Shown: positions 9,260-35,165 of the stretch, piece after piece
How positions within the stretch are numbered: position 1 is the stretch's first letter
Layout of the letters: every line of letters begins with the position of its first letter
Assembly: GCA_022447665.1 (NCBI GenBank)
Contig: JAKVAQ010000008.1
Span: 45,046-80,210, forward strand
From: Crocinitomicaceae bacterium
GTDB taxonomy: Bacteria; Bacteroidota; Bacteroidia; Flavobacteriales_D; Crocinitomicaceae
DNA length: 35,165 nucleotides
Direction: 5' to 3'
Notes under the pieces: generated by a model
Told to the model about the DNA's origin: nothing
The model's input: the letters and a program-made list of their open reading frames with translations, nothing else
The model's database searches: none
Translations under genes and position numbers: made by a program

Positions 9260-9466
9260 ATGAAAAGAAGAGTTCTATCCAATTGGTCGTTCCTTAGATT
9301 ATTGTACGCAGTTATGGGAGCTGGTTTATTGTATTACTCAGTCACCGAAAGACAATGGCTAGGTATTATCATAGCATTGTATTTCTTAGCCATGTGTGTA
9401 TTTGCCATTGGCTGCGCCACAGGAAATTGTGTTGGGGATGAATGTGAAGTAGAAGGAAATTCTTAG
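9260..9466 (+). CDS. Small membrane protein, function unknown
   Basis: A 68-residue protein with two predicted hydrophobic helices (about 10-25 and 31-52) and a Cys-bearing tail (GCATGNCVGDECEVE) that could bind a metal or form disulfides. N-terminal KRR is positively charged. Such short two-helix proteins with DUF2892/YgaP-like appearance occur in many Bacteroidota, but I cannot name a family with confidence. It stands 55 bases after the regulator and its stop codon overlaps the stop of the convergent dioxygenase gene by four bases. The ATG at 9260 follows an imperfect -7 element (GAACTTTG, 9244-9251). Confidence 0.7.
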   Translation: MKRRVLSNWSFLRLLYAVMGAGLLYYSVTERQWLGIIIALYFLAMCVFAIGCATGNCVGDECEVEGNS

Positions 9467-9996
9467 TCCACAAATCGCTCATCAACTTCCATCACGGTAC
9501 CGCAGTTCTTGCACGTTCTTAAATCTAAAGAAGAGTAGAAATGCTTAAATCTTGGTTGAAAGTCTTTCTCGACATTTGTCAATTCAAATCGTGTGTCATG
9601 CAATTTTGTATTGCAATTATCACAAAACCACATTAAACCGTCTTTACAGTCTGCTCCTTTTCGAACGCGCTCAACAACCAATCCTACTGAATTAGCCGGA
9701 CGAACTGGATTGTGGGGGATATTAGCAGGAAGTAAGAACATATCACCTTCTTTGATTTCCACTTTTTTTGCCTTACCATCTTCCTGAATAGTCACAACAA
9801 TATCACCTTCAAGTTGGTAAAATAACTCTTCAGTTTCATTGTAATGGTAATCTTTTCTAGCATTAGGACCACCTACAATCATTACAATATAATCACCTGA
9901 TTCCGTGTAAAGATTCTTATTACTTACTGGTGGTTTTAGAAGATCACGGTTCTCATCTATCCACTTCTTAAGATTAAAAGGTCCTGCAATTGCCAT
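9463..9996 (-). CDS. nbaC: 3-hydroxyanthranilate 3,4-dioxygenase
   Basis: Cytoplasmic cupin dioxygenase of 177 residues that opens the ring of 3-hydroxyanthranilate to give the precursor of quinolinate, in tryptophan degradation by the kynurenine route. All family landmarks are seen at the expected positions: iron ligands H51, E57 and H95, substrate residues R47, R99 and E109, and a second rubredoxin-like iron site made of C125-x2-C128 and C162-x2-C165, typical of the bacterial enzyme. The length matches. No other kynurenine-pathway gene is within the window, so partners such as kynureninase must be elsewhere. It overlaps the convergent small membrane gene by four bases. Confidence 0.96.
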   Translation of the reverse strand: MAIAGPFNLKKWIDENRDLLKPPVSNKNLYTESGDYIVMIVGGPNARKDYHYNETEELFYQLEGDIVVTIQEDGKAKKVEIKEGDMFLLPANIPHNPVRPANSVGLVVERVRKGADCKDGLMWFCDNCNTKLHDTRFELTNVEKDFQPRFKHFYSSLDLRTCKNCGTVMEVDERFVD

Positions 9997-20285: not shown

Positions 20286-22703
20286 TTGAAATTGAACAAT
20301 TTAGCATATGGTTTATTTTTGAGCTTGTTATCAGCTTCGGTTGGGCACGCTCAATTGGTCACGTCTACTGCATCAACACCAACAACTTTGGTTGAAGATG
20401 TTCTTGTTGGTAGTGGTGTAGCAGTCAGTGCTGTTTCTTACACAGGTGACCCAAATGCAATAGGTTCTTTTAACGGTTCTGCGACAAATCTTGGTCTGGA
20501 TAACGGGATTATTCTTACTACAGGGACTGTTCTGAACGAAACTGGGATTCTAGGTGAACAACAGGGTCCTTTTGGTCCGAATGATACAGGTAGTTCAGGA
20601 ACCGATAATGGTGCTGCTGGTTATGGTCCGTTGACCACGTTAGCAGGCGAAGAGACCGAAAATGCGGCTATTTTAGAATTTGATTTTGTGCCACAAAGTG
20701 ATACGGTGCGCTTTAAATATGTATTCGGATCAGATGAATATCCTGAGTTCGTGGGTAGTGAATATAACGACGTTTTTGCATTCTTTATTTCTGGTCCAGG
20801 CTTCGGTGGTGAGTACAATATGGCTCAGATACCTGGGGGTGGCGGGCCAGTAGCGATAAATAACATTAACAACGGTAGCTCAAACACAGGTCCTTGTCAA
20901 AATTGTGCCTATTATATAAATAACGGAACTGGGAGCACGGCTCCTTCATCTGGAAGTGACTTTTACATTCAGTATGATGGGTTTACAACTGTGATGGAGG
21001 CAGTTGCGGAGGTACAATGTGGTGAAACATATCACCTCAAAATAGCTATTGCCGATGCAGGTGATGGAGCTTATGATTCGGGAATTTTCTTAGAAGCAAA
21101 TAGTTTAGAGTCTTACTTGCCTTTAGAAATGACTGCATCTCTACTGAATAATCATTTTGGTGATTTCTCTATGTTGGCGGAAGGATGTGAAACGGCGACG
21201 GTAACAGTGAAAAGAGATGCAAGTTTAGCTGGTACGGCAGAGAGTATTCCTTTAGACGTTTTAGGAACGGCAACAGAAGGTGTAGACTTTGAAAACCTTC
21301 CAGCATCCATAAATTTTGCTGCAGGACAAACTGAAGTAACATTTGATTTCGATGTGTATTCTGATGGTGTTTTTGAAGGGGATGAAACTTTAATTTTAAG
21401 GCTTAACTACCCAAATCCATGTGGGGATGATAATTTCATACTATTGAATTTCGTGATTAAAGATATAGACCCGGTTGTAGTCACTGCTCCCGATGTAAAC
21501 GTATTATGCCCGCTAGAAGAAGCCACTCTTGTCGCCAATGTAACGGGCGGTTTGCCGGATTACACATACACATGGAGCACTGGAGGAACGGAAAGTACTG
21601 AGTTGGTCTCGCCACCAACAACTACAACTTACACTGTAACTGTGGTAGATGCTTGTACTGGAGATGCAGTCTCAGAAGATGTTACAGTTATTGTTCCTGT
21701 TTATCCGCCAATGATTATAAACACAACTCCTGATACTTCAGTTTTATGTCCAAATACACCTCTAACCTTGGTGTCAGAAGTTTCAGGTGGTGAAGGAACT
21801 TATGTTATTACTTGGTACGAAGGAACCATTCCTGTTGGTTCAGGACCTACCCTTGGAGTCTCTCCAATGGTAACAACTACTTATACCGTCACAATAATGG
21901 ATGGTTGTGGTGTGGAGATTTCTAGAGATATTACTGTAACAGTAATTGCAAGTGTGCTCGAATTGGAGATGAGTCCTGATCAGTTAATTTGTCCTGGTGA
22001 TTCAGCAGATATTTGGGTAATTGCTACAGAAGGTTTAGGCGACTACACTTATGAATGGTTGCATTCAGGAGAGACAACTTCAGATGTGCAGGTATGGCCT
22101 TTAAATACTACAACGTATACCGTTTCAGTAATGGATGCTTGTGCAACTTACAGTATTGAAGGATCTACAACAGTTAAAGTTGTTCGTCCTACAGCGAATT
22201 TCCAAATCCTCAGTACAGAAGCGATGGAGAATCTTTTGGTGAGCTTTAATAATTCAAGTGTTGGAGCACTTACCTATTGGTGGGATCTAGGTAATGGAGA
22301 GGAATCTGAACTTCATTCACCTTCTTCTGTTTACAACGCTTCCGGATGGTATGATGTTACTTTAGTTGCGATTAATGAAATCGGTTGTACTGATACTATA
22401 ATGAAACCAATTTACATTAAGCCAGAGTTTTATTTTTATGCACCAAATGCATTCACTCCAGATGGAAATAGAGTTAATAGTGCATATTCTGTTTCTGTAA
22501 TCGGAGCTACTACATTCGAATTTCAAATTTTTAATAGATGGGGTGAGTTAATTTATACAACAGAAGACCCTTTCTTCCAATGGGATGGTACTTATGACAA
22601 TAATGGTATTGTTCAGGATGGTGTTTATGTCTGGAAAGCGCATGTAAGAGATCGAGAGAATATTGATCATACTTACAACGGAACCATCACCGTTTTACGC
22701 TAA
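20286..22703 (+). CDS. Choice-of-anchor L / Calx-beta / Ig-like / PKD protein with T9SS CHU_C sorting domain
   Basis: An 805-residue surface or secreted protein. Order: signal peptide (1-23), choice-of-anchor L domain (about 30-280, with LDNGIILTTGTV, FKYVFGSDEYPEFV, YNDVFAFFISGPG), Calx-beta-like domain (280-395, TATEGVDFENL, GDETLILRL), three ~80-residue Ig-like repeats (396-632) each with a Cys pair and a TTTYTVTV/I motif, a PKD domain (635-712, TYWWDLGNGEE) and the gliding-motility-associated C-terminal domain (716-805, APNAFTPDGNRV, IFNRWGELI, QDGVYVWKA). The C-terminal domain is a type IX secretion signal. The start is TTG: an in-frame stop lies upstream and TTG gives a proper signal peptide. 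It probably works in adhesion or matrix formation and may bind Ca2+ via Calx-beta. Confidence 0.92.
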   Translation: MKLNNLAYGLFLSLLSASVGHAQLVTSTASTPTTLVEDVLVGSGVAVSAVSYTGDPNAIGSFNGSATNLGLDNGIILTTGTVLNETGILGEQQGPFGPNDTGSSGTDNGAAGYGPLTTLAGEETENAAILEFDFVPQSDTVRFKYVFGSDEYPEFVGSEYNDVFAFFISGPGFGGEYNMAQIPGGGGPVAINNINNGSSNTGPCQNCAYYINNGTGSTAPSSGSDFYIQYDGFTTVMEAVAEVQCGETYHLKIAIADAGDGAYDSGIFLEANSLESYLPLEMTASLLNNHFGDFSMLAEGCETATVTVKRDASLAGTAESIPLDVLGTATEGVDFENLPASINFAAGQTEVTFDFDVYSDGVFEGDETLILRLNYPNPCGDDNFILLNFVIKDIDPVVVTAPDVNVLCPLEEATLVANVTGGLPDYTYTWSTGGTESTELVSPPTTTTYTVTVVDACTGDAVSEDVTVIVPVYPPMIINTTPDTSVLCPNTPLTLVSEVSGGEGTYVITWYEGTIPVGSGPTLGVSPMVTTTYTVTIMDGCGVEISRDITVTVIASVLELEMSPDQLICPGDSADIWVIATEGLGDYTYEWLHSGETTSDVQVWPLNTTTYTVSVMDACATYSIEGSTTVKVVRPTANFQILSTEAMENLLVSFNNSSVGALTYWWDLGNGEESELHSPSSVYNASGWYDVTLVAINEIGCTDTIMKPIYIKPEFYFYAPNAFTPDGNRVNSAYSVSVIGATTFEFQIFNRWGELIYTTEDPFFQWDGTYDNNGIVQDGVYVWKAHVRDRENIDHTYNGTITVLR

Positions 22704-22707
22704 TTAT

Positions 22708-22715
22708 TACATTTG
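22708..22715 (+). promoter_or_regulatory. TAnnTTTG -7 element upstream of the GH3-like/beta-lactamase gene
   Basis: TACATTTG is an exact match and overlaps a possible upstream TTG start, favouring ATG 22734. It allows separate expression from the preceding T9SS gene, only 30 bases upstream. Confidence 0.45.
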
Positions 22716-22733
22716 TTGCAAAAAGCATTCTTA

Positions 22734-25382
22734 ATGCCCAAGCAACTGTATTACAAATCATTATTCCTTCTTCTTCTCGGTGCTTTTTATAGTTGTGGAT
22801 CAGAAGAGAAAGTCGAAGAACCAATCGTCACAGAGAATGTATTTTCTGAATCAACAGATTCTTTGTTTGGTAATCTCTCAGAGCAGCAATTGTATTGGCA
22901 GCACCTAGTTTTAACTGTTCCGCAGTCAATGCAAGGAAATATAGATAGTTTACAACGTTTCATTGCAGCGAATGAGCCAGGCGCTTTACGATTAGTCAAA
23001 TGGAATATAGACTCGATTGAAATCTTAAAATCCCAAATAGATACGCTTGATATTATTCAGCCTGTTTTTATGTGTGATTATTTTAAATTGATTGGAGCTG
23101 AGCCGTATCCTTTCTGGAAAACAAGCGATTCGTTGAAGAATTCGTTTTACACGGAGTTTTATATGAAGTCCAATATGAACTTTATAGACTTTGGTTCAGG
23201 GTCAAATTTTGAAAATACTAGCTTTTTTGACTCAATTGCCTCGCAAAAAAGTTTGGTACCAATTCTGTCCCATTATTCCGATAAGAATGTAAAAACGGAG
23301 TATGAAGATTTTATGAAATCAATTACCTCCAACTCAAATGGTGTGTTATTGGATATCGCCACTTATGATACATTGAATTTTGAGCAAATAAAAAAATCTC
23401 AAAATTTTAAGGGGTATTTATTTGTGCGGCCTGAAGATGTGAAAACAAACAACCTTTTAATGAATGGAGTTGATTTCGTTTTTGCTGATGAAACTTATCA
23501 ATCCGGATTAAATGATTGGAATCAGGAGAATAAAACAGAAGAATTTATTAATTCCACCAAAAGAATACTAGCCTTTAAAGAAAATTTGAAGGGAGAAGGA
23601 AGGGTTAATTTTCAATCTGAATTAGACTTTTTAAGACTTAACTATCAGTTAAAATCCACCGCACTAATTAGTGATAAGAGAGACTTGGTTCCTTTTAAGA
23701 ATAGGTTCACCATTTATTCAACCGAGAAGTTAAGAATAAGGCAAAAAATACGGGATGAATCCAATTGCCGAACGGAAGTGTATAAGCAAAAAAACTTGGC
23801 TAAGGTTATTGCGGCTGACGGAAATAAAGTGTTGATTCTTCCTGATTCTATTTCTAAAGAAGATGCAGGACTTTTGCAAAAAATAAAAAAGGAGAATCAT
23901 TTAATTGTCTGCTTTCGGAATGTATTTCAGTATAATGAGCTTAAGAATCTTCCTCATTTATTGTATCTCCCAAAAACAGAACTGTTAGATGCTGAAATAT
24001 TGGCTCAACAGATTAAGGGAAAACTAAGTATAGAGGCAAACTTCATTGCAGGCCAAGATATTATAAAAGGAAAAGTAAGGGAAAAATCTGGGCTTTCTAG
24101 GGCTAAGCCAGAATTGGTTGGTATGTCCTCGGATACTATTCGTCAAATCGACTATGCGATAAAAACGGCTATGAATGGTAGGTCATTTCCAGGTTGTCAA
24201 GTCCTTTTGGCTAAGAATGGCACCATTATTTATGATAAATGTTTTGGTCATCATTCCTATAAGCGCGAAAAACTGGTTACGCCCGAATCTATGTATGATC
24301 TGGCTTCTCTTACCAAGGTTGTAGCTACAACAATGATTGGGATGAAATTGTACGAAATGAATGCTTATAACCTAGAGGATAGTTTGGTTGATTATTTGCC
24401 AGATAGTTTAAAGCTTCATTTAAAATACCCTAGTACTATAAGAAACATTACTTTCCAAGAATTATTTATTCACAAGAGTGGATTACCTTCAGGGTTCCCA
24501 ATAATAAATTACATGCAGTATACAAGTTCTACGGTTGGAAGATACGATATGTATTATTGTGATTGGGAGGATAGCACATTTACCATTGAAGTAGCAGAGA
24601 ATTATTACATGGATAAAGCTTACGCTGATTCCATGTGGCTGAGGTTGAACAGTATCTTTCTAGATCCTGCTAAACCCTATAAATATAGTGATGTAAGCAT
24701 GAATACCTTGTATTACATGTTTAGTGGTTTACTCAGAAAAAACCCAAAAGAATTTGGTTTCAATCAAACCAAAGAACAGTTGGCAGAACTTAATCTTTTT
24801 GAAGAGTACTTGTACACGAATTTCTACACCCCTTTAGGAATGTCTAGAACACGTTACCGACCTAAACGACTTTTCAATAAAAATGAAATAGTACCTACGG
24901 AAGATGAGAAATATTGGCGAAAGCAATTACTTCAAGGGCATGTGCATGATCCAAATGCGGCACTAATGGGTGGTGTAGCTGGTAATGCTGGAATGTTCAG
25001 CACAACAAATGATTTAGTAAAGCTGATGCAGATGCTCTTAAATAAAGGGATTTTTGAAGGTAAACGCTATTTAAACGCCGAAACGGTTACAAAATTTACT
25101 TCGGCGCAAGTCGGCTCTCATCGTGGTCTTGGATGGAATAAACCAACGATTACCAGTAAAGGGTATGGTATTTCTGATTTTGCCACGCTTCAAACATTTG
25201 GTCATACTGGTTTCACAGGAACTTGTTTATGGGTTGATCCTGCGAGCGAAATCGTTTATATTTTTCTTTCAAATAGAGTACATCCTACCGTTAACAATAG
25301 AATTTATCAATACGGGATAAGAAAAACAGTTCATCAAATGGCATATCGTTCATTGATCCATGAGACGCACTCGCGTAACTAG
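22734..25382 (+). CDS. Lipoprotein: degenerate GH3-like N-terminal part fused to beta-lactamase-family serine hydrolase
   Basis: An 882-residue lipoprotein with lipobox LLLLGAFYSC. The middle part (about 50-450) follows the outline of a GH3 beta-N-acetylhexosaminidase (an opening SEQQLYWQHLV, a PGALRLV turn, FKGYLFVRP, GVDFVFAD, INSTKRILAFKENL), but the family's KHFPGHG-type and nucleophile (D in TDAL-like) motifs are not seen, so this part is likely catalytically dead; this is inference from alignment by eye. The C-terminal part (about 460-870) is a class C beta-lactamase/DD-peptidase/esterase fold with S525-L-T-K528, Y-S-D in KYSDVSMN, and HTG in FGHTGFTG, all present. Fusions of GH3 and beta-lactamase are known in Bacteroidota and are thought to recycle peptidoglycan. 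Start ATG 22734 chosen over TTG 22713. Confidence 0.85.
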   Translation: MPKQLYYKSLFLLLLGAFYSCGSEEKVEEPIVTENVFSESTDSLFGNLSEQQLYWQHLVLTVPQSMQGNIDSLQRFIAANEPGALRLVKWNIDSIEILKSQIDTLDIIQPVFMCDYFKLIGAEPYPFWKTSDSLKNSFYTEFYMKSNMNFIDFGSGSNFENTSFFDSIASQKSLVPILSHYSDKNVKTEYEDFMKSITSNSNGVLLDIATYDTLNFEQIKKSQNFKGYLFVRPEDVKTNNLLMNGVDFVFADETYQSGLNDWNQENKTEEFINSTKRILAFKENLKGEGRVNFQSELDFLRLNYQLKSTALISDKRDLVPFKNRFTIYSTEKLRIRQKIRDESNCRTEVYKQKNLAKVIAADGNKVLILPDSISKEDAGLLQKIKKENHLIVCFRNVFQYNELKNLPHLLYLPKTELLDAEILAQQIKGKLSIEANFIAGQDIIKGKVREKSGLSRAKPELVGMSSDTIRQIDYAIKTAMNGRSFPGCQVLLAKNGTIIYDKCFGHHSYKREKLVTPESMYDLASLTKVVATTMIGMKLYEMNAYNLEDSLVDYLPDSLKLHLKYPSTIRNITFQELFIHKSGLPSGFPIINYMQYTSSTVGRYDMYYCDWEDSTFTIEVAENYYMDKAYADSMWLRLNSIFLDPAKPYKYSDVSMNTLYYMFSGLLRKNPKEFGFNQTKEQLAELNLFEEYLYTNFYTPLGMSRTRYRPKRLFNKNEIVPTEDEKYWRKQLLQGHVHDPNAALMGGVAGNAGMFSTTNDLVKLMQMLLNKGIFEGKRYLNAETVTKFTSAQVGSHRGLGWNKPTITSKGYGISDFATLQTFGHTGFTGTCLWVDPASEIVYIFLSNRVHPTVNNRIYQYGIRKTVHQMAYRSLIHETHSRN

Positions 25383-25473: not shown

Positions 25474-28400
25474 ATGGTAAAGCAACTATCTTTTTTAACC
25501 TTCTTGTCTCTATTTTTAACGGGTTGTGGATCTGGTGGAGAAAATGGTAATTTGAATGATAAAGATTCTACCGAAAATCTTTCCAAAACTTCTATGGAGT
25601 TTCTTCAATTAACTCAGGATGAAACAGGAATTGACTTTACAAATACTATAACTGAAACCAAGGAATTTAACTATTACGCATATGAGTATGCGTATAACGG
25701 TGGTGGTGTTGCCTTGGGTGATATAAATAATGATGGTTTAATAGATATTTATTTTACCGGAAATCAAGTTTCAGATAAGCTTTACTTAAATAAAGGAGAT
25801 ATGAAATTTGAGGACATTACAGCTACTGCGATACCATCAGGAGCCGATGAAGGTTGGCATACCGGAGTCGTTATGGCGGATGTGAACGGTGATGGATATC
25901 AAGATATTTATGTTTGTAGGGCAGGGCCGTGGGAGGATAAAGAGCTATTAACAAATTTTCTTTACATCAATAACCAAGACAATACCTTTACAGAGAGTGC
26001 TGTCGAATACGGTTTAGCCATTGATCGTCCTTCTACGCATTCAGCGTTTTTTGACTTGGACAAAGATGGAGATTTAGATGTCTATGTAATGAATCATCCC
26101 GGAGTATATAAAGATGAAAGTTTTACAAGTGAGCAATTGCAGAAATCTATGAAGTATGGACCTAAGTCAGATCTCCTCCTTGAAAACGTAGATGGAAAGT
26201 TTATTGATATAACAGAAAAAGCAGGAATTGCTTCAAATACCTATGGACTGGGACTTGCAGTCGCTGATATTACTGGAAATGGATACTTAGACATATACAT
26301 TGGTAGTGATTTCCAAGATCCTGATTTTTTCTATGTCAATCAGGGTGATGGTACGTTCAAGAATGAGCTAAACGAAAGAACAAATCACGTTTCCACATTT
26401 TCAATGGGGAATGATGCCGTTGATATTAATAATGATGGAGATCTAGATATTATTTCATTAGATATGGCCAGTGAGGATCATATCAAATCAAAAAGAAATA
26501 TGGGAGCTATGAGTACTAGTGTATTCATGGATATAGTTAAAGTTGGTTTTCACTACCAATACATGTTCAACACATTGCAATTGAATAATGGAAATGGAAC
26601 TTTTGCTGATATAGGGCAAATGGCCGGCGTTTCGAAAACTGACTGGTCTTGGGCACCACTAGTAGCAGATTTTGATAACGATGGTCTTAAGGATATTATC
26701 ATTACAAATGGGTTTCGTAGGGAGTTAAGAGATAATGATTACTTGAAAGAACATAACGCTAAGGTGGAGAAGGGAATTGAGTTTGATCCACTTGAGGAAT
26801 TAGCTTTGGTAGCAACAACGAAAATCGAAAACTACGCCTATAAGAATAAAGGGGATCTGACCTTTGATAAAGTTACAGCAAACTGGGGACTAAATAAACC
26901 GATTAATTCAAATGGTGCAGCCTATGCTGATTTAGACAATGACGGAGATCTAGATGTCGTGTTGAATAACATGGAAGAGGTTTCTGCTATTCTTGAAAAT
27001 AAATTAGAAGGTAAAAACAATTACATACAAATAAAGCTAGAGGGGCATCAAAAGAATACAGCGGCCCTGGGTGCAAAAGTTTGGTTAGAAACAGATGAAG
27101 GTCTTCAGTTTCAAGAGATGCAAACTTCGAGAGGATACCTTTCTTCAGTTACACCAGTTTTACACTTTGGTCTTGGAAAAAGTAAGGTACAAGAGATCAC
27201 GGTTCAATTTGATGATGGTACAATCATAAAAAAAGAAGCACCAGCATTAAACCAATTACACTCTTTTAGTAGAAACGATGCTAAGGAAGGTGTTGTTGGT
27301 ATTTCGATGACAAAAAATCAATTTTTCAGAGATATAACGGATTCCCTTTTTAAGCATACGGATACAGAGGTCCCATTTAATGATTTTGAAACTGAAGTTT
27401 TGATTCCAAATAAAATGTCACAGTTAGGTCCTTTTATCTCTAAGGGTGATGTGAATGGCGATGGTTTGGAAGATGTCTATGTTTCAGGATCTCTTGAGGA
27501 AAGTGGAGCGCTATACTTGCAGACTTCAACAGGGTTTAAAAAGCAAAGTGGTCCTTGGAATAAAGAGAGTACACGAGAAGAGATGGAGTCTTTAATTTTT
27601 GACGCCGATAGTGATGGCGATAATGATTTATACGTAGTAAGTGGTAGTAATGAGTTTGCTGGAAATTCGATTTATTTGGGGCATCAGCTTTATATTAATG
27701 AAGGAGGAGGGAAGTTTATAGATGGATCTGATCAGCTGCCTCCAATACCAATTTCTGGACAATCAGTAGCCCCAGGAGATTATGATGGAGACGGTGATTT
27801 AGATTTATTTATTGGTGGTCGTCAGGCACCAGGATTTTATCCTTTTGCACCTCGTAGTTTCCTCTATTTAAATGATAACGGTACTTTCCTTGATGCTACA
27901 GAGAAGTCACCGGACTTAATGCAGCCAGGGTTAGTGACTGATGCTCTTTTCGATGACTTTGATGGAGATCAAGATCTAGACCTAATTATCGTTGGTGAAT
28001 GGATGGCTGTTAGCTTTTTTGAAAACAATGGAGGGGCATTTACAAACGTCACGGAGAAATACAACCCAGCAAAAGATATAGGTTGGTTCTATAGTATCGA
28101 AAAAGGTGATTTTAATGGCGATGGTAAAAACGACTACATTGTCGGAAACCTTGGAGAGAACAATAAATTTCATCCTTCATTTGATAAGCCTTTAGAGATT
28201 TATGTGAATGATTTCGATGGAAACGGAACTAACGATATTGTTTTGGCTAAATACCAAAATAATGTTTGTTTCCCAGTACGAGGTAGGCAATGCTCTTCCG
28301 AACAAATGCCTTTTATTAAAGAAAAGTTTCCAACCTTTAGTGATTTTGCAAGCGCTGATTTGAGCAAGATTTATGGTGAAGGAAATTTAGAGAGCGCATT

Positions 28401-28782
28401 ACATTATTCTGCTACAGATTTTGCGTCAACCGCATTTATTTCATCGGGAGGTTCATACAGTACTGCACACTTACCAAGTTTGGCGCAAATGTCCCCAATA
28501 AACAAGTTTATCGTAAAAGACTTTAATGGCGATGGTAATATGGATGCACTAGGAGTAGGGAATAACTTCGGTGTTGAGGTAGAAACCGTTCGTTACGATG
28601 GTGGTCGAGGTGTTCTACTTTTAGGAGATGGTAACGGTGGATTTAATGCATTAAGTCCAAAAGAGTCTGGTTTCCTTGAAAGAAACGACTGTAAAGACAT
28701 GGAAATAGTGAGTTTTGCCGGTCAGGAAATTATTATAACCGTTTCCAACTCAGCAAAAGCAAAAACATTTCTAATCAAATAA
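25474..28782 (+). CDS. VCBS/FG-GAP repeat and ASPIC/UnbV-domain lipoprotein (copy 1)
   Basis: An 1,102-residue lipoprotein (lipobox LTGC, Cys18). Repeated Asp-rich FG-GAP/VCBS blades such as GDINNDGLIDIY, ADVNGDGYQDIY, DLDKDGDLDVY and DFDNDGLKDI run over about 70-510 and again about 640-1070; such loops bind Ca2+ and usually form a beta-propeller. Between them is an ASPIC/UnbV domain (about 525-600: LGAKVWLETDEG, TSRGYLSSVTPVLHFGLG). The C-terminal part has two conserved Cys stretches (GRQCSSEQMPF and NDCKDMEI). Proteins of this type (CRTAC1-like) are common on Flavobacteria surfaces near polysaccharide or metal uptake systems, but no SusC/SusD pair is nearby. It is paralogous to the gene at 29613. 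Confidence 0.92.
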   Translation: MVKQLSFLTFLSLFLTGCGSGGENGNLNDKDSTENLSKTSMEFLQLTQDETGIDFTNTITETKEFNYYAYEYAYNGGGVALGDINNDGLIDIYFTGNQVSDKLYLNKGDMKFEDITATAIPSGADEGWHTGVVMADVNGDGYQDIYVCRAGPWEDKELLTNFLYINNQDNTFTESAVEYGLAIDRPSTHSAFFDLDKDGDLDVYVMNHPGVYKDESFTSEQLQKSMKYGPKSDLLLENVDGKFIDITEKAGIASNTYGLGLAVADITGNGYLDIYIGSDFQDPDFFYVNQGDGTFKNELNERTNHVSTFSMGNDAVDINNDGDLDIISLDMASEDHIKSKRNMGAMSTSVFMDIVKVGFHYQYMFNTLQLNNGNGTFADIGQMAGVSKTDWSWAPLVADFDNDGLKDIIITNGFRRELRDNDYLKEHNAKVEKGIEFDPLEELALVATTKIENYAYKNKGDLTFDKVTANWGLNKPINSNGAAYADLDNDGDLDVVLNNMEEVSAILENKLEGKNNYIQIKLEGHQKNTAALGAKVWLETDEGLQFQEMQTSRGYLSSVTPVLHFGLGKSKVQEITVQFDDGTIIKKEAPALNQLHSFSRNDAKEGVVGISMTKNQFFRDITDSLFKHTDTEVPFNDFETEVLIPNKMSQLGPFISKGDVNGDGLEDVYVSGSLEESGALYLQTSTGFKKQSGPWNKESTREEMESLIFDADSDGDNDLYVVSGSNEFAGNSIYLGHQLYINEGGGKFIDGSDQLPPIPISGQSVAPGDYDGDGDLDLFIGGRQAPGFYPFAPRSFLYLNDNGTFLDATEKSPDLMQPGLVTDALFDDFDGDQDLDLIIVGEWMAVSFFENNGGAFTNVTEKYNPAKDIGWFYSIEKGDFNGDGKNDYIVGNLGENNKFHPSFDKPLEIYVNDFDGNGTNDIVLAKYQNNVCFPVRGRQCSSEQMPFIKEKFPTFSDFASADLSKIYGEGNLESALHYSATDFASTAFISSGGSYSTAHLPSLAQMSPINKFIVKDFNGDGNMDALGVGNNFGVEVETVRYDGGRGVLLLGDGNGGFNALSPKESGFLERNDCKDMEIVSFAGQEIIITVSNSAKAKTFLIK

Positions 28783-28783
28783 T

Positions 28784-29569
28784 TTATAGTGACTTGGTTC
28801 TTCCTCCGTCGACTGGAACATTTATTCCATTAATATAGCTTGCCGCAGGCGAAGCTAGAAATGCAATTGCGTTAGCTACTTCTTCAGGTCTTGCAACTCT
28901 GCCCATTGGAGAAGCGGCAGCCATAGTAGCTCTAACTTCTTCTTTTGTTTGTCCCGTTTTCGATGCTTTATTTTCAATAATCGATGATAATCTAACAGTA
29001 TCAGTAGCTCCCGGAAGCACATTGTTTACGGTTATATTAAACTGTCCAAGTTCGTTAGCAAGTGTTTTGCTCCAGTTCGCTACAGCGCCACGAATAGTGT
29101 TCGAAACACCAAGGTTTGGTAAAGGCTGCTTTACCGAAGTAGAGATAACATTAATTATTCGTCCATATCCGCTTGTCTTCATCAATGGAATAACCGCTTG
29201 TGCTAAGATGTGATTACAGATTAGGTGCATATTAAATGCTGCCAAATACTCGCTAGTGTCTGCCGCATTCGCCGGTCCTCCAGCAGGCCCTCCAGTATTG
29301 TTGATGAGAATCTCGACTGATTTTCCGACTAGGAATGATTCTAATTTAAACTTTAATTCTTCCGGCTGAGTGAAATCAGCGACTAAGTATTGGTGATTTT
29401 GATTTTGCGATAAGTCAAGTTCTTTAATTGCATTCTTCAATTTCTCTTCATTTCGAGCAACCAATACACAATTAGCTCCCATTTCTGATAATTCCTTCGC
29501 ACTAGCCAGTCCAATTCCCTGAGTACTACCACAAACAATGGCGGTTTTATTTGTTAAGTCTAAATTCAC
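28784..29569 (-). CDS. SDR-family oxidoreductase with atypical active site
   Basis: A 261-residue short-chain dehydrogenase/reductase. The cofactor motif GSTQGIG (14-20) and an NNTGG segment (TGG after ILINN) match the family. The downstream NVLPGATDT and FLASPAASYINGINVPVDGG are canonical. At the usual Y-x3-K catalytic site the sequence reads SNTIRGAVANW, Ser in place of Tyr and Arg in place of Lys, which resembles the 'BKR-like SDR-like' subgroup known to have an imperfect catalytic tetrad. So it may have unusual or no oxidoreductase activity. It is antisense to, and lies between, the two large paralogous lipoprotein genes; its stop is one base from the stop of the first. Confidence 0.9.
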   Translation of the reverse strand: MNLDLTNKTAIVCGSTQGIGLASAKELSEMGANCVLVARNEEKLKNAIKELDLSQNQNHQYLVADFTQPEELKFKLESFLVGKSVEILINNTGGPAGGPANAADTSEYLAAFNMHLICNHILAQAVIPLMKTSGYGRIINVISTSVKQPLPNLGVSNTIRGAVANWSKTLANELGQFNITVNNVLPGATDTVRLSSIIENKASKTGQTKEEVRATMAAASPMGRVARPEEVANAIAFLASPAASYINGINVPVDGGRTKSL

Positions 29570-29582
29570 TTTTGTATTTTTG
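29550..29582 (+). promoter_or_regulatory. Promoter of the second VCBS/UnbV lipoprotein gene
   Basis: TTTG (29550-29553) and TATTTTTG (29575-29582) are both exact Bacteroidota elements with a 21-base spacer. It overlaps the beginning of the divergent SDR coding region, so the two transcripts share this DNA. The expected start, near 29589, fits ATG 29613 and excludes the earlier in-frame ATG at 29538. Confidence 0.65.
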
Positions 29583-29612
29583 TATAAAATTAAACCTCTT
29601 TATCAATCCTAC

Positions 29613-32600
29613 ATGTTTTTAAATAAAAAATTCCGCTTCATAATTTGTTTATTGTCCTTGACAGTGGTGATGATGAGCAGTTGTACAGGTGGATCTGAAA
29701 GTGTAAACGATGACTCTGATTCAACCGAGGTGACAGAGCAAATGTTTTTTGAAGAAGTAGATCCAAATTATTCTGGTGTCGACTTTAAAAACATAGTTAC
29801 TGAGACAGATTCCTTTAACTTTTACTTCTTCGATTATATGTACAATGGGGCTGGTGTGGCTGTAGGGGACATTAATAATGACGGCCTGGAGGATGTATAT
29901 TTTGTAGGGAATCAAGAGGAGGACAAGCTTTACTTGAATAAAGGAGATTTTAAATTCGAAGATATTACTGAATCTGCTATTGGGGAATTAGCCTTTGTTG
30001 GTTGGCATACCGGGGTCACGATGGCTGATATTAATGCAGATGGTTTTTTAGATATTTATGTTTCGAGATCGGGAAAACCATCGCGTCTAGAAGATTTGGA
30101 GAATCTATTGTTTATTAATAATGGTGATTTAACATTTAAAGAAGTTGGTGAAGAGTTTGGTGTGAATATACGTAAACCCACTACCCAAAGCACGTTTTTC
30201 GATGCTGACAATGATGGAGACCTAGATTTATTCGTTATGAACCATCCTTACAGTTTTAAAGAGTCAAGTGGTTCGGATACTCTTCAGAGAATGATTGCCA
30301 GAATGAAAAATGAGGGAGGGTTGTATACAGACGTTTTTCTGCGCAATGACGATGGGGTATTTGTTGATGCATCAAAAGAGGCGGGTTTAATGAATTATGG
30401 ATATGGGTTAGGCGTATCTGCCACTGACTTAAATGACGATGGTTGGGTGGACTTGTATATTTCCAATGATTTTTTCACTTCTGATATGTTTTTAATCAAT
30501 CAAAAAGACGGGACATTCAATGAAGAGGTGAAAGAAAGAACTAATCATATTTCATATTTTTCAATGGGCAATGACGTTGCAGACATTAACAACGATGGAT
30601 TTGTTGATTTTATTACTACCGATATGGCAAGCGCCGATCATGTGCGATCAAAAAAGAATATGGGTGGAATGGATACTGAAAAGTTTTGGAGAATGGTGAG
30701 AAAGGGAGAGCACTTTCAGTACATGTTTAACACACTCCAGTTGAACAATGGAGATGGAACATTTATTGACATAGGTCAAATGGCGGGAGTGTCAAAGACT
30801 GATTGGTCCTGGGCTCCTTTATTAGTTGATTTTGATAATGATGGCTTAAAAGATTTACTCATTACTAATGGATATAAGAGAGATTCAAGAGATAATGATT
30901 TTAACATAGCTTATAACGAAGGAACTTTAGGTACTGAGGATGTTATGGAGTCTCTTGAATTGATGCCTTCCACCAAAGTAAGCAATTATTTTTTTAAGAA
31001 CATCGATGGAGTTCACTTTGAGAATTATGGAGATAAATGGGGGGTTGATAAACCGGTAAACACAAATGGTGCGATTCATGTTGATTTGGATAACGATGGT
31101 GATTTAGATTTAATTCTAAATAATATGGATGAAACTGCTTCTATTCTTGAGAATAAGTTAAGTTCACAAAACAACTTCATCCAGCTAAGACTAAAAACGA
31201 CTCTCAAAAATCAATCGGGTATTGGTGCTCAAATCAAACTATATTCGAATGACAAAGTCTTTGCAACAGACATTCAAAACGCAAAGGGTTATGAGTCCTG
31301 TCCTAGTACCAAAGTCACTATTGGTCTTGGTGAAGTGAAACATATTGATTCTGCTATCATAAGTTTTAATGGCGAACGAAAAATTATAAGAACCTTAACC
31401 GTAAATTCTTTGAACATAGTGGATTATTCCTCACTTGAACTTTACAAGAAAAATAGTAATCAAAAGAAAATATTTGAAAGATTAGAGTCAATAGATTATG
31501 AGCATCAAGAAAATATAGTTAATGATTTTCAAAATGAGGTGTTACTACCTCACAAGATGTCTCAGTTAGGGCCGTTTATGTCTAAGGCAGACGTTAATAA
31601 TGACGGAATTGAGGATTTGTATATTTCGGGCTCTCGTGGCTTTTCAGGAGCTATGTATGTCCAGAATTCAGAGGGCGAATTTACAAAAATCAGAGGTCCA
31701 TGGGCCGCACAAAAAGAAATGGAGGAATTAGGCTCGTCATTTGTAGATGTGGACAATGACGGTGATATGGACTTATATGTTGTTTCTGGTTCAAATGAAT
31801 TTAAGTTTGATTCCCCATTGCTTCAAGACCAATTATATATCAATGATGGTTCGGGTAATTTCGAAAATGTGACAGATAAATGGTTACCAAGAATGCAGAC
31901 TTCTGGTCAGAATGTGACAGTTGGAGATTATGATAACGATGGAGATCAAGATATTTTTATAGGAGGTAAACAGACTCCGGGCTACTATCCTTTTGCTCCA
32001 AGAAGTTATTTGTTAGAAAACAACGGTGAAGAATTTATTGATGTAACTGAAAAGTCAGTTGATTTAATGGGACCCGGAATGATTACAGAATCCGTGTTCT
32101 CGGATTTTGACCAAGATGGCGACTTAGATTTAGTTTGTGTTGGTGAGTGGATGCCAGTGTCTTTCTTTGAAAATAATGATTCAAAATTTGAGAATGTCAC
32201 TGACACATATAATCCAAAAAAGTCAGTTGGCTGGTATATGTCCATTTCTACAGGCGATTTCAACCAGGATGGAAGAGATGATTACATTGTTGGGAATATT
32301 GGCGCAAACAACAAGTTTCATCCTTCTGAGCAATATCCATTGGAAATCTATTGTCATGATTTTGATGAGAATGGAACTTACGACATTGTGCTGGGTAAAT
32401 ATCAGAATGGTGTTTGTTATCCGGTAAGGGGTAGACAGTGTTCTACGGAGCAAATGCCATTCATTCAGGAAAAATTCCCTACTTATGGTGATTTTGCTGT
32501 ATCTGACTTAGAAAGAATTTATGGAGCTGAAGCATTGAGCAAAGCATTGCACTATTCTGCTAATAATTTTAAAAGTATTGTTCTATTGAGTGATGAGAAA

Positions 32601-32936
32601 AATGGCTATTCTCAACAAATTCTGCCGAACGAAGCTCAATTTGGCCCAATAAACTCAAGTGTGGTAATTGATGTTAATGATGATGGTGCGCTAGACATTG
32701 TTGCTGCGGGGAATAATTTCAGTGCAGAAGTGGAAACCATAAGGTATGATTCGGGCAGAGGATCAGTTCTCATTAATGATGGTTCTGGCAAATTTGCGGC
32801 TCTTTCTCCTTCCGAATCGGGTTTCTTGATACGCGATGATTGTAAGGACCTATTGGCGATTACAATTAAGGGGTCAATAAATATTCTTTCAGTGTCTAAT
32901 CTTTCTAGAGTGAAACAGTTTAAATTGATAGAATAA
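29613..32936 (+). CDS. VCBS/FG-GAP repeat and ASPIC/UnbV-domain lipoprotein (copy 2)
   Basis: A 1,107-residue lipoprotein paralogous to the 25474 gene (lipobox MMSSC, Cys24). The architecture is the same: FG-GAP/VCBS blades (GDINNDGLEDVY, ADINADGFLDIY, DADNDGDLDLF, DFDNDGLKDLL), an ASPIC/UnbV domain (about 530-600, IGAQIKLYSNDK, KGYESCPSTKVTIGLG), then another set of Asp-rich blades, and near-identical C-terminal motifs GRQCSTEQMPFIQEKFPTYG and IRDDCKDLL. In the best stretches the two proteins are about three quarters identical by eye. I chose ATG 29613, which gives a proper lipoprotein signal; an in-frame ATG at 29538 would lie inside the SDR gene and upstream of the promoter. The role is unknown, probably Ca2+-dependent surface binding. 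Confidence 0.92.
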   Translation: MFLNKKFRFIICLLSLTVVMMSSCTGGSESVNDDSDSTEVTEQMFFEEVDPNYSGVDFKNIVTETDSFNFYFFDYMYNGAGVAVGDINNDGLEDVYFVGNQEEDKLYLNKGDFKFEDITESAIGELAFVGWHTGVTMADINADGFLDIYVSRSGKPSRLEDLENLLFINNGDLTFKEVGEEFGVNIRKPTTQSTFFDADNDGDLDLFVMNHPYSFKESSGSDTLQRMIARMKNEGGLYTDVFLRNDDGVFVDASKEAGLMNYGYGLGVSATDLNDDGWVDLYISNDFFTSDMFLINQKDGTFNEEVKERTNHISYFSMGNDVADINNDGFVDFITTDMASADHVRSKKNMGGMDTEKFWRMVRKGEHFQYMFNTLQLNNGDGTFIDIGQMAGVSKTDWSWAPLLVDFDNDGLKDLLITNGYKRDSRDNDFNIAYNEGTLGTEDVMESLELMPSTKVSNYFFKNIDGVHFENYGDKWGVDKPVNTNGAIHVDLDNDGDLDLILNNMDETASILENKLSSQNNFIQLRLKTTLKNQSGIGAQIKLYSNDKVFATDIQNAKGYESCPSTKVTIGLGEVKHIDSAIISFNGERKIIRTLTVNSLNIVDYSSLELYKKNSNQKKIFERLESIDYEHQENIVNDFQNEVLLPHKMSQLGPFMSKADVNNDGIEDLYISGSRGFSGAMYVQNSEGEFTKIRGPWAAQKEMEELGSSFVDVDNDGDMDLYVVSGSNEFKFDSPLLQDQLYINDGSGNFENVTDKWLPRMQTSGQNVTVGDYDNDGDQDIFIGGKQTPGYYPFAPRSYLLENNGEEFIDVTEKSVDLMGPGMITESVFSDFDQDGDLDLVCVGEWMPVSFFENNDSKFENVTDTYNPKKSVGWYMSISTGDFNQDGRDDYIVGNIGANNKFHPSEQYPLEIYCHDFDENGTYDIVLGKYQNGVCYPVRGRQCSTEQMPFIQEKFPTYGDFAVSDLERIYGAEALSKALHYSANNFKSIVLLSDEKNGYSQQILPNEAQFGPINSSVVIDVNDDGALDIVAAGNNFSAEVETIRYDSGRGSVLINDGSGKFAALSPSESGFLIRDDCKDLLAITIKGSINILSVSNLSRVKQFKLIE

Positions 32937-33143: not shown

Positions 33144-33175
33144 TTTGTTTAAAAATATTGACTGACGTAGTTTTG
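33144..33175 (+). promoter_or_regulatory. Strong Bacteroidota promoter of the terminal Fn3-repeat gene
   Basis: TTTG (33144-33147) and TAGTTTTG (33168-33175) match both elements exactly with a 20-base spacer. It lies about 43 bases upstream of ATG 33218. This is the best promoter match in the window; the rest of the 280-base gap (32937-33217) shows only weak AAGCG/CGCTT pairing (32965-32995) that might end the preceding transcript. Confidence 0.7.
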
Positions 33176-33217: not shown

Positions 33218-35165
33218 ATGAGAAAAATTTACTTTTTGATGAGTGCTTTGCTTGTCACTGGGTTAAGTTCTTCGGTATTAGCTCAAGGAGATGATTGTGC
33301 CTCTGCGGTTCCAGTTACTCCAGGTGTTTATACCGCGGACGGACCCTTATCTGGTGGAGGAGGAGTCTTTAGTGCAAATGGTGATTGGTATTCTTTTACC
33401 GCTCCTTGTAATGGTACTATGGACGTTTCTGCTTGTATCTCAGGCACAGCTCCTGATACCTATTTACTTATTTATGAGGACGATTGTCCGAGCTCATCAG
33501 CTGAATCTATTGCTACTGATGATGACTTTTGTGCATTCTTTGGTCCTTCTGCAGTTAACGGTTTGTCCGTGACTGCTGGTACAACCTATTATATCGAGTG
33601 GTCTGATACATATGAAGGAACAGGATTTGATTGGGAATTTGATTATAACCCGGATGATGAGATAACTGGTATAGGAGACGTAACTACTTCAGTTTCCTCT
33701 GATTTGACGTGGACTCCCGCAGGAGATGAAACTTCTTGGAATGTAGAATATGGTCCTGATGGTTTCATACCAGGCACAGGAACGACTGTTTCTACACTAA
33801 CACCTTCGGTAACAATAACAGGATTGTCACCAGAAGTGGCGTATGATGTTTACATAACTCCAGTGGGTGGTACAGTTTGTATTGTTACAGCTGAACCATA
33901 TGATATTACAACTAACCCATTATGTGCCGTTCCTGTCGCAGCGATCACTTCCGGAATTACAGATACTGACGCGACATTAGAATGGGATCCAGGTGCTTCC
34001 GCCGAAACATTATGGGATGTTTCTTGGGGGACAATGGGAACCTTAATTGGAGCTGGTACTGATGTAGATGATACTCCATTTGATTCTGAAGTATTAGCCG
34101 GATTAACTCCAGATACTGATTATGAATGGTATGTTAGAGCTGTTTGTGATTTAAACTTATTAGATGGTGTTGACACGGTATCTTTATGGGTAGGTCCTAT
34201 TGAATTCACTACTGATCAAGTTTGTGCTGATCCTTCAGGCTTAGCTGCTACTCCAGCTGCTTTTGAAGCAGATCTTACTTGGACTCCTGGTGGAGCTGAA
34301 ACTGAATGGAATATAGAATATGGACCATCAGGTTATACATTTGGCACAGGTACATCTGTTGCAGGTGTTACCGCACCATTACCTTACACGCTTACTGGAT
34401 TGACTCCAGAAACTTCTTACGATTATTACGTACAATCAGTCTGTGGTTCAACTCCAGATTCTTTATCAAATTTTGTTGGACCATTTACCTTTACGACGAA
34501 TACTTATTGTGATGCACCGACGGGAATATTAACATATGGTATTACAACTGACTCTGCGATTATTGATTGGGCAGATGGTACAGGTACTGATTGGGAATTA
34601 GAATGGGGACTTGATGGATTTACTCCAGGAACTGGAACTTTAGTAGTTCTCACAGAATCTGCGGATACATTATCTGGACTAACTAATAATACAACTTACT
34701 GCTATTATTTAAGATCTGTATGCGGATCTACTGACGATTCTTCTTCTGTATGGATGGGACCGTTCTGCTTTACTACACAAGCAATTTGTAATGAGCCTAT
34801 TTCCTTAGATGCAATTAACATTACAACGACTGCGGCTTATTTATTATTTACAGATATTGCTGGTGCGACTTCTTGGAATATTGAGTGGGGAGTTCCTGGT
34901 TTTGACGTAGATGCTGGTGAAGAATCTGATTTCGTAGATGGAACAATGGATAATCCTCATTATGCAACTGGATTAATGGAGTCAACTCCTTATTGGTATT
35001 ATGTACAAGCAGTATGTGGATCTACACCTGATTCATTGTCTAATTGGGCAGGACCGTTCCAGTTTGGAACTGAAATCGTAAACGATAAGCCATGTGAAGC
35101 AATTGAGATTATCGTAGATGATCCACAAAGACAATTCCACAACTTCGAAGCAACGGTGGATATTG
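33218..35165 (+). CDS. Secreted protein with fibronectin-III-like repeats (3' end beyond window)
   Basis: An open frame of at least 649 codons runs from ATG 33218 off the end of the window. It starts with a signal peptide (MRKIYFLMSALLVTGLSSSV, ending LAQ), then a PPC-like beta domain (about 24-145: ANGDWYSFTAPCNGTMDVS, PDTYLLIYEDDC, AGTTYYIEW), then five fibronectin-III-like repeats of about 95 residues, marked by W-N/D/E-I/V/L-E/S-Y/W-G and most starting with Cys and Pro (CAVP, CADP, CDAP, CNEP). A further PPC-like segment begins near the end (PCEAIEII). By family pattern the missing C-terminus should carry a T9SS sorting domain, but that cannot be seen. Probably a large surface adhesin or secreted enzyme scaffold. 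Confidence 0.9.
   Translation, partial: MRKIYFLMSALLVTGLSSSVLAQGDDCASAVPVTPGVYTADGPLSGGGGVFSANGDWYSFTAPCNGTMDVSACISGTAPDTYLLIYEDDCPSSSAESIATDDDFCAFFGPSAVNGLSVTAGTTYYIEWSDTYEGTGFDWEFDYNPDDEITGIGDVTTSVSSDLTWTPAGDETSWNVEYGPDGFIPGTGTTVSTLTPSVTITGLSPEVAYDVYITPVGGTVCIVTAEPYDITTNPLCAVPVAAITSGITDTDATLEWDPGASAETLWDVSWGTMGTLIGAGTDVDDTPFDSEVLAGLTPDTDYEWYVRAVCDLNLLDGVDTVSLWVGPIEFTTDQVCADPSGLAATPAAFEADLTWTPGGAETEWNIEYGPSGYTFGTGTSVAGVTAPLPYTLTGLTPETSYDYYVQSVCGSTPDSLSNFVGPFTFTTNTYCDAPTGILTYGITTDSAIIDWADGTGTDWELEWGLDGFTPGTGTLVVLTESADTLSGLTNNTTYCYYLRSVCGSTDDSSSVWMGPFCFTTQAICNEPISLDAINITTTAAYLLFTDIAGATSWNIEWGVPGFDVDAGEESDFVDGTMDNPHYATGLMESTPYWYYVQAVCGSTPDSLSNWAGPFQFGTEIVNDKPCEAIEIIVDDPQRQFHNFEATVDI
33657..35076 (+). 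repeat. Five tandem fibronectin-III-like coding repeats (~285 bp each)
   Basis: The W-x-x-x-Y/W-G signatures lie near 33736, 34013, 34305, 34590 and 34875, at nearly even spacing. Units 2-5 begin with Cys-x-x-Pro, and most end in a PF/IxFTT-like strand. The DNA differs between units, so they are old repeats rather than recent expansions. Confidence 0.75.

Follow-up and report, generated by a model that had tools for sequence, protein, structure and literature searches.

Two lipoproteins of roughly 1,100 residues that are encoded close together in a Crocinitomicaceae genome are, on the reading we consider fairly probable, old paralogues that are rich in calcium-type loops, that would bind a ligand, and that belong to a family usually linked to SusC and SusD; they probably work here independently of SusCD, since no SusD was detected in the genome. 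The feature itself is real, old and conserved; its domain make-up is ordinary and its setting is informative. The window, by which we mean the whole stretch of 35,165 nucleotides that was analysed (G000:C78:45046-80210), ends where the contig ends. An earlier note on this DNA had described the two paralogues with an SDR gene lying antisense between them, and the open reading frames were confirmed in those places, with the following neighbours and promoter-like site:

20286-22703, plus strand: choice-of-anchor L protein with a CHU_C T9SS signal domain, a conserved neighbour
22713-25382, plus strand: beta-lactamase-family protein (Bla), the conserved upstream neighbour, with a lipobox recognised by eye
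25474-28782, plus strand: copy 1, a lipoprotein of 1102 aa with an FG-GAP propeller, UnbV/ASPIC and a second propeller (ORF and Pfam)
28784-29569, minus strand: SDR oxidoreductase of 261 aa with a GTG start, from a gene common across the order (Pfam adh_short/adh_short_C2)
29538-32936, plus strand: copy 2, the second double-propeller lipoprotein, 1132 aa as listed (ORF and Pfam)
29550-29582, plus strand: promoter-like site of the Bacteroidota type, TTTG-N21-TATTTTTG, before copy 2 (pattern scan)
33218-35164, plus strand: fibronectin-III protein, the downstream neighbour, its frame still open where the contig stops

Judging from its signal peptide, copy 2 is likely to start at 29613, which would give a protein of 1107 aa. 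The two propeller genes, as members of the family are called here, share one layout of lipobox, FG-GAP propeller, UnbV/ASPIC domain and second propeller. Pfam finds FG-GAP_3 in nine stretches of copy 1 and seven of copy 2 (E 1.4e-77 and 8e-71) and UnbV_ASPIC (PF07593) at 59.7 and 28.8 bits respectively, and with PF07593 above its cut-off of 23.4 alongside several FG-GAP repeats both are members of the ASPIC/UnbV FG-GAP (CRTAC1-like) family. Identity between the copies is 55-56% in each propeller and 22% in UnbV, and UnbV is also the least conserved part of the family, with a mean of 42% against 61-62% in the propellers for pairs among 22 Crocinitomicaceae rows of the alignment, and 34.5% against 46.6% and 39.6% for pairs among all 126 rows. 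The UnbV profile score of copy 2 is below that of six of the seven relatives scanned. Low conservation of UnbV/ASPIC could mark either a specificity region or relaxed constraint. Strict DxD/NxDG motifs number 11 in copy 1 and 13 in copy 2, against means of 0.18 and 0.16 in 1000 shuffles of each copy, in which the maximum was 2; with so many loops of this type both resemble calcium-binding FG-GAP propellers, and they may well bind Ca2+.

AlphaFold2 gave a mean pLDDT of 92.5 and a pTM of 0.92 for copy 1 (alignment of 82 family members) and of 90.1 and 0.89 for copy 2 (46 family members), the copy 2 model having much the same order of elements; the fold search was made with copy 1 only. The best match to the copy 1 model is murine CRTAC1, PDB 9etn (Foldseek E 1.7e-28), with a Z of 38.1 and an rmsd of 2.6 over 471 aligned residues in the range 39-1060, and copy 1 is accordingly predicted to have a CRTAC1-like fold. 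In sequence searches, too, the family profile has its best match in this CRTAC1 chain (E 7.1e-31), most strongly over 469-602 in the region of UnbV; integrin alpha chains follow at a weaker E of 1.6e-5. CRTAC1 has one propeller and, like both copies, carries UnbV/ASPIC after an FG-GAP propeller; because of this domain order it is taken as the counterpart of the first propeller plus UnbV, but it is a chain of 551 residues, and the copies have another propeller beyond this as well as a lipobox of the bacterial kind. The structural match reaches into the second half of copy 1 too, where residues 613-1102 give matches to many beta-propellers.

The usual company of the family is best seen among the 80 named loci, a set that comprises the 80 best among 108 matches to copy 1 and is not a random sample (loci L093, L095 and L096 repeat those of G011, G030 and G020). 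Of these loci, 69 are from outside the Crocinitomicaceae: in 54 a SusD gene with the orientation of the propeller gene lies at most four genes upstream of it, SusC only is found in one, and neither SusC nor SusD in 14, some of which are cut by contig ends or sit on short contigs; SusCD-free members are therefore not unique to Crocinitomicaceae. Neither SusD nor SusC stands beside the propeller gene in any of the 11 Crocinitomicaceae loci among the 80 (SusD, 54/69 against 0/11, Fisher p 7e-7, ignoring relatedness). The identity of SusC and SusD in the named loci was checked on samples. The SusCD-linked lipoproteins of Flavobacteriaceae, Cytophagales and Saprospiraceae are full-length homologues, with 36-47% identity in the named loci outside the Crocinitomicaceae and with the same domain order in the three that were scanned, but they are encoded downstream of SusC-SusD whereas the pair in the window, homologous as it is to proteins of SusCD loci, is next to neither. 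Other genes near the propeller gene in four sampled SusCD loci of other Bacteroidota are PAP2 genes (L147, L168), which we take to be haloperoxidase-like, an arylsulfotransferase-family gene (L145), a trehalase/GH63-like gene (L123) and a GyrI-like gene. A search of a library of open-access papers found none on the family in SusCD loci.

That the pair has no SusC/SusD partner had been claimed already from the window, and the claim can now be made more strongly: the whole genome has no match to any of four SusD families (PF14322, PF07980, PF12771 and PF12741), each model being positive in a Bacteroides control. For SusC, TIGR04056 gave 25 partial matches in this genome, all of which fail to pass the cut-off and lie on contigs other than C78 and C13. 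The survey of SusD across 240 Crocinitomicaceae genomes was made with PF07980, the other three SusD models being run on the window's own genome only; it found SusD in 112 of the 240 but in 3 of the 21 that have a propeller gene (Fisher p 0.002, ignoring relatedness and incomplete genomes). In those three (G088, G140 and G170) the propeller gene and SusD are on different contigs in the places shown, one of the two G140 matches not being shown.

The age of the pair is a matter for the trees, which were built from 61 rows (midpoint-rooted for drawing only) and from 30 rows, with topology tests under LG+G4. The copies are close together, have the same layout and are 52% identical overall, as might be expected if one gene had lately been duplicated in tandem within this genome; such an origin is nevertheless extremely unlikely, as a two-row clade of copy 1 and copy 2 is rejected (p-AU 0.0018, under LG+G4 and with a copy 2 branch of 0.72) and copy 1 falls with Crocinitomix proteins, in a clade with support of 97 in the 61-row tree and 100/98 in the 30-row tree. 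The long-standing divergence proposed in the earlier note is thus borne out, and the two do not cluster as recent tandem copies of their own genome. In the 30-row tree the clade of copy 1 consists of seven rows and includes the C. algicola copy from the same slot before the SDR gene. Copy 2 lies on its long branch outside the Crocinitomix copies and is poorly placed; a clade uniting it with every Crocinitomix copy of the tree could not be rejected (p-AU 0.44). That copy 2 is an orthologue of the Crocinitomix clade found after the SDR gene was also considered and is rejected (p-AU 0.0032, the group having been chosen after inspection of the tree). In G030 and FCJ.6 the copies that precede the SDR gene pair with each other (99/95) within the other Crocinitomix clade, and the same slot has therefore been filled more than once. 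The history of the locus is one in which genes arose and were replaced at a set position, and not that of one clean orthologue pair.

The gene order of the locus fits with such turnover. A propeller gene match at E <= 1e-150 is found in 21 of the 240 Crocinitomicaceae genomes and in 7 of 24 genera, the number of copies per genome in this count being a lower bound, with at most three candidates scored per genome. The order of the window, namely M23, choice-of-anchor L, Bla, propeller gene, antisense SDR, propeller gene, fibronectin-III (FN3), recurs in C. algicola (G011) and in an uncultured Crocinitomix (G030). Four other Crocinitomix loci (L090, L094, L097 and L098) have Bla followed by SDR, and only the propeller gene after the SDR gene is present. 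A propeller gene comes after an antisense SDR gene in the window, nine Crocinitomix loci, G020 and G139, G020 having the order Bla, SDR, propeller gene, FN3, propeller gene, propeller gene, FN3; in G140 a propeller gene precedes an FN3 gene. The genomes G004 and G025, from the genus of G139, and G008, from another genus, have choice-of-anchor L, Bla and SDR, with a 3-hydroxyanthranilate dioxygenase (3-HAO) gene three genes from SDR and no propeller gene there, and G004 and G008 carry tandem pairs of propeller genes at other places in the genome. On this comparison, the two slots beside an SDR gene that stays in place have either received propeller genes or lost them. Bla, whose best NCBIfam match is PBP4B, below the cut-off, remains part of the block in G011, G030, G020, G004, G025 and G008, and the C. 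algicola relative of the fibronectin-III neighbour, 37% identical, has a T9SS type A tail. Matches to copy 1 occur in 26 plasmid records, two of which cover at least 80% of its length, with a best identity of 38.4%.

The window's genome holds three full-length propeller genes in all, plus two other UnbV frames of 765 and 2138 aa. The third full-length paralogue (G000:C13:105650-108778, L044:8582-11848) is 41-42% identical to the copies but differs from them in having no lipobox Cys, another neighbourhood, a place in a separate clade and a UnbV score of 21.9 bits, weaker than that of copy 2 and under the cut-off in a whole-protein scan. Neither this protein nor the product of the first gene of the G004 pair has a Cys in its first 30 residues, and lipid anchoring is therefore not essential to the family. 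Next to the third paralogue are two genes for proteins of ~410-450 aa, which look TilS-like and chorismate-binding-like when their first residues are inspected by eye; both are met again alongside the relatives in G004, G025 and G020.

The recurrence of an antisense SDR gene beside or between propeller genes, in the window, the nine Crocinitomix loci, G020 and G139, could suggest that the copies and the SDR gene belong together functionally as a unit, such as a receptor with an enzyme that acts on its ligand. The conserved position does mean that the SDR gene is not the random neighbour that would have counted against the earlier note, but the unit finds no such support and we hold it to be very unlikely, the gene being widespread and mostly without a propeller gene. 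Of 59 genomes, 49, the window's own among them, carry one strong SDR match each (E <= 1e-60), and 37 of these 49 have no propeller gene at E <= 1e-100; 12 genomes have both, 6 have neither, and 4 of the 16 with a propeller gene have no SDR match at that threshold. The Bla-SDR block retained without a propeller gene in G004, G025 and G008 speaks against the unit as well, as do the 3-HAO, Rid-family or amidohydrolase (Amidohydro_2) genes lying at most three genes from SDR in 9 of 20 SDR loci (L199-L201, L204, L207-L210 and L217, several assigned through clustering with a scanned member), which hint at aromatic-compound catabolism, a role for the SDR that is a guess; the 3-HAO gene of the window, at 9463-9996, is 19 kb away. 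An FAD monooxygenase in L215 was considered as kynurenine 3-monooxygenase and this is unsupported, all NCBIfam matches shown being below the cut-off. The SDR gene is probably a resident of the locus and not a partner of the propeller genes.

Copy 2 had been credited with an excellent promoter of its own overlapping the SDR start. A site of the Bacteroidota-type promoter consensus, TTTG-N21-TATTTTTG, is indeed present at 29550-29582, where it covers the SDR start codon and ends 31 bases before 29613, but its support is moderate and not excellent, and statistically it is weak: the three occurrences of the pattern in the window compare with an expectation of 1.57, and a count of three is reached by 22 of 100 shuffles. 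A sigma-70-type scan gave no site at 29550-29582, upstream of copy 2. A further Bacteroidota-type promoter-like site was seen at 33144-33175, ahead of the fibronectin-III gene. The window has no tRNAs and no RNA families at gathering score, and no intrinsic-terminator-like sites were found between 25300 and 33300, against 4.6 expected from shuffles.

Two C-terminal cysteine motifs, RGRQCS[ST]EQMPF and DCKD, are present in both copies and had been thought to lack an explanation from the known domains. The first turns out not to be special to the pair: P.RG[RKL].C[ST][ST].Q occurs in 80 of 126 rows, 27 of 29 from Crocinitomicaceae and 53 of 97 others, the latter counted whether or not they are SusCD-linked. 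DCKD is confined to 12 of the 126 rows, every one from Crocinitomicaceae. On this distribution RGRxCSSxQ is a signature of a large part of the family and DCKD a local addition. In the copy 1 model RGRQCSSEQ (residues 936-944) begins a helix run, 938-974, between strands 931-934 and 976-980, so that in the model the signature lies within a helical insertion in the second propeller, and Cys1073 of DCKD is predicted at the start of strand 1073-1081. Cys940 is found in 85 family rows, Cys932 in 24 and Cys1073 in 12, the last only together with both others (12/12); 61 of the 85 rows with Cys940 are without Cys932 and 73 are without Cys1073, and Cys940 therefore has no general partner among these. 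Nor is it associated with Cys148 (47 rows with both, 29 and 38 with one only, 12 with none).

Where the proteins sit in the cell bears directly on what they might do. Both copies have a signal peptide with a lipobox Cys, residue 18 in copy 1, and are predicted to be lipidated; among the 122 rows with a letter in the corresponding alignment column, 117 have Cys. Neither copy matches the export-signal consensus of a polar or basic residue plus acidic residues just after the Cys, and some relatives are without the lipobox Cys, so the copies could instead be periplasm-facing, structural or accessory lipoproteins rich in calcium-type loops and not surface receptors. We regard this as possible if rather unlikely: outside the Crocinitomicaceae the family is mostly found in SusCD loci, and Sus-like systems are described in PMC5080379 as surface-exposed lipoprotein complexes, whilst the export signals after Cys that are published there differ between species, and the consensus used may not be that of this family.

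The most natural interpretation of a lipid-anchored, rigid double propeller with calcium-type loops is that it serves as a binding module. Where it is encoded with SusCD, it would probably be an accessory lipoprotein that helps to gather ligand for the importer. Here the copies, gained, lost or replaced in two slots flanking the resident SDR gene, would most likely act as calcium-stabilised receptors or adhesins at the outer membrane that bind an extracellular ligand, either glycan or glycoprotein, and they may do so alone or with secreted T9SS cargo from the adjoining genes, feeding no SusCD importer. More tentatively, this SusCD-independent branch may in Crocinitomicaceae have become a surface system in its own right, a receptor or adhesin that works with T9SS-secreted partners encoded alongside. 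If that is true, the label "auxiliary SusCD lipoprotein" would be wrong for this branch, and the family's own activity would be open to study free of the importer. In a genome that encodes these lipoproteins but in which no SusD can be detected, what they do themselves can be told apart from nutrient import, and the question of what the double propellers bind becomes directly testable.
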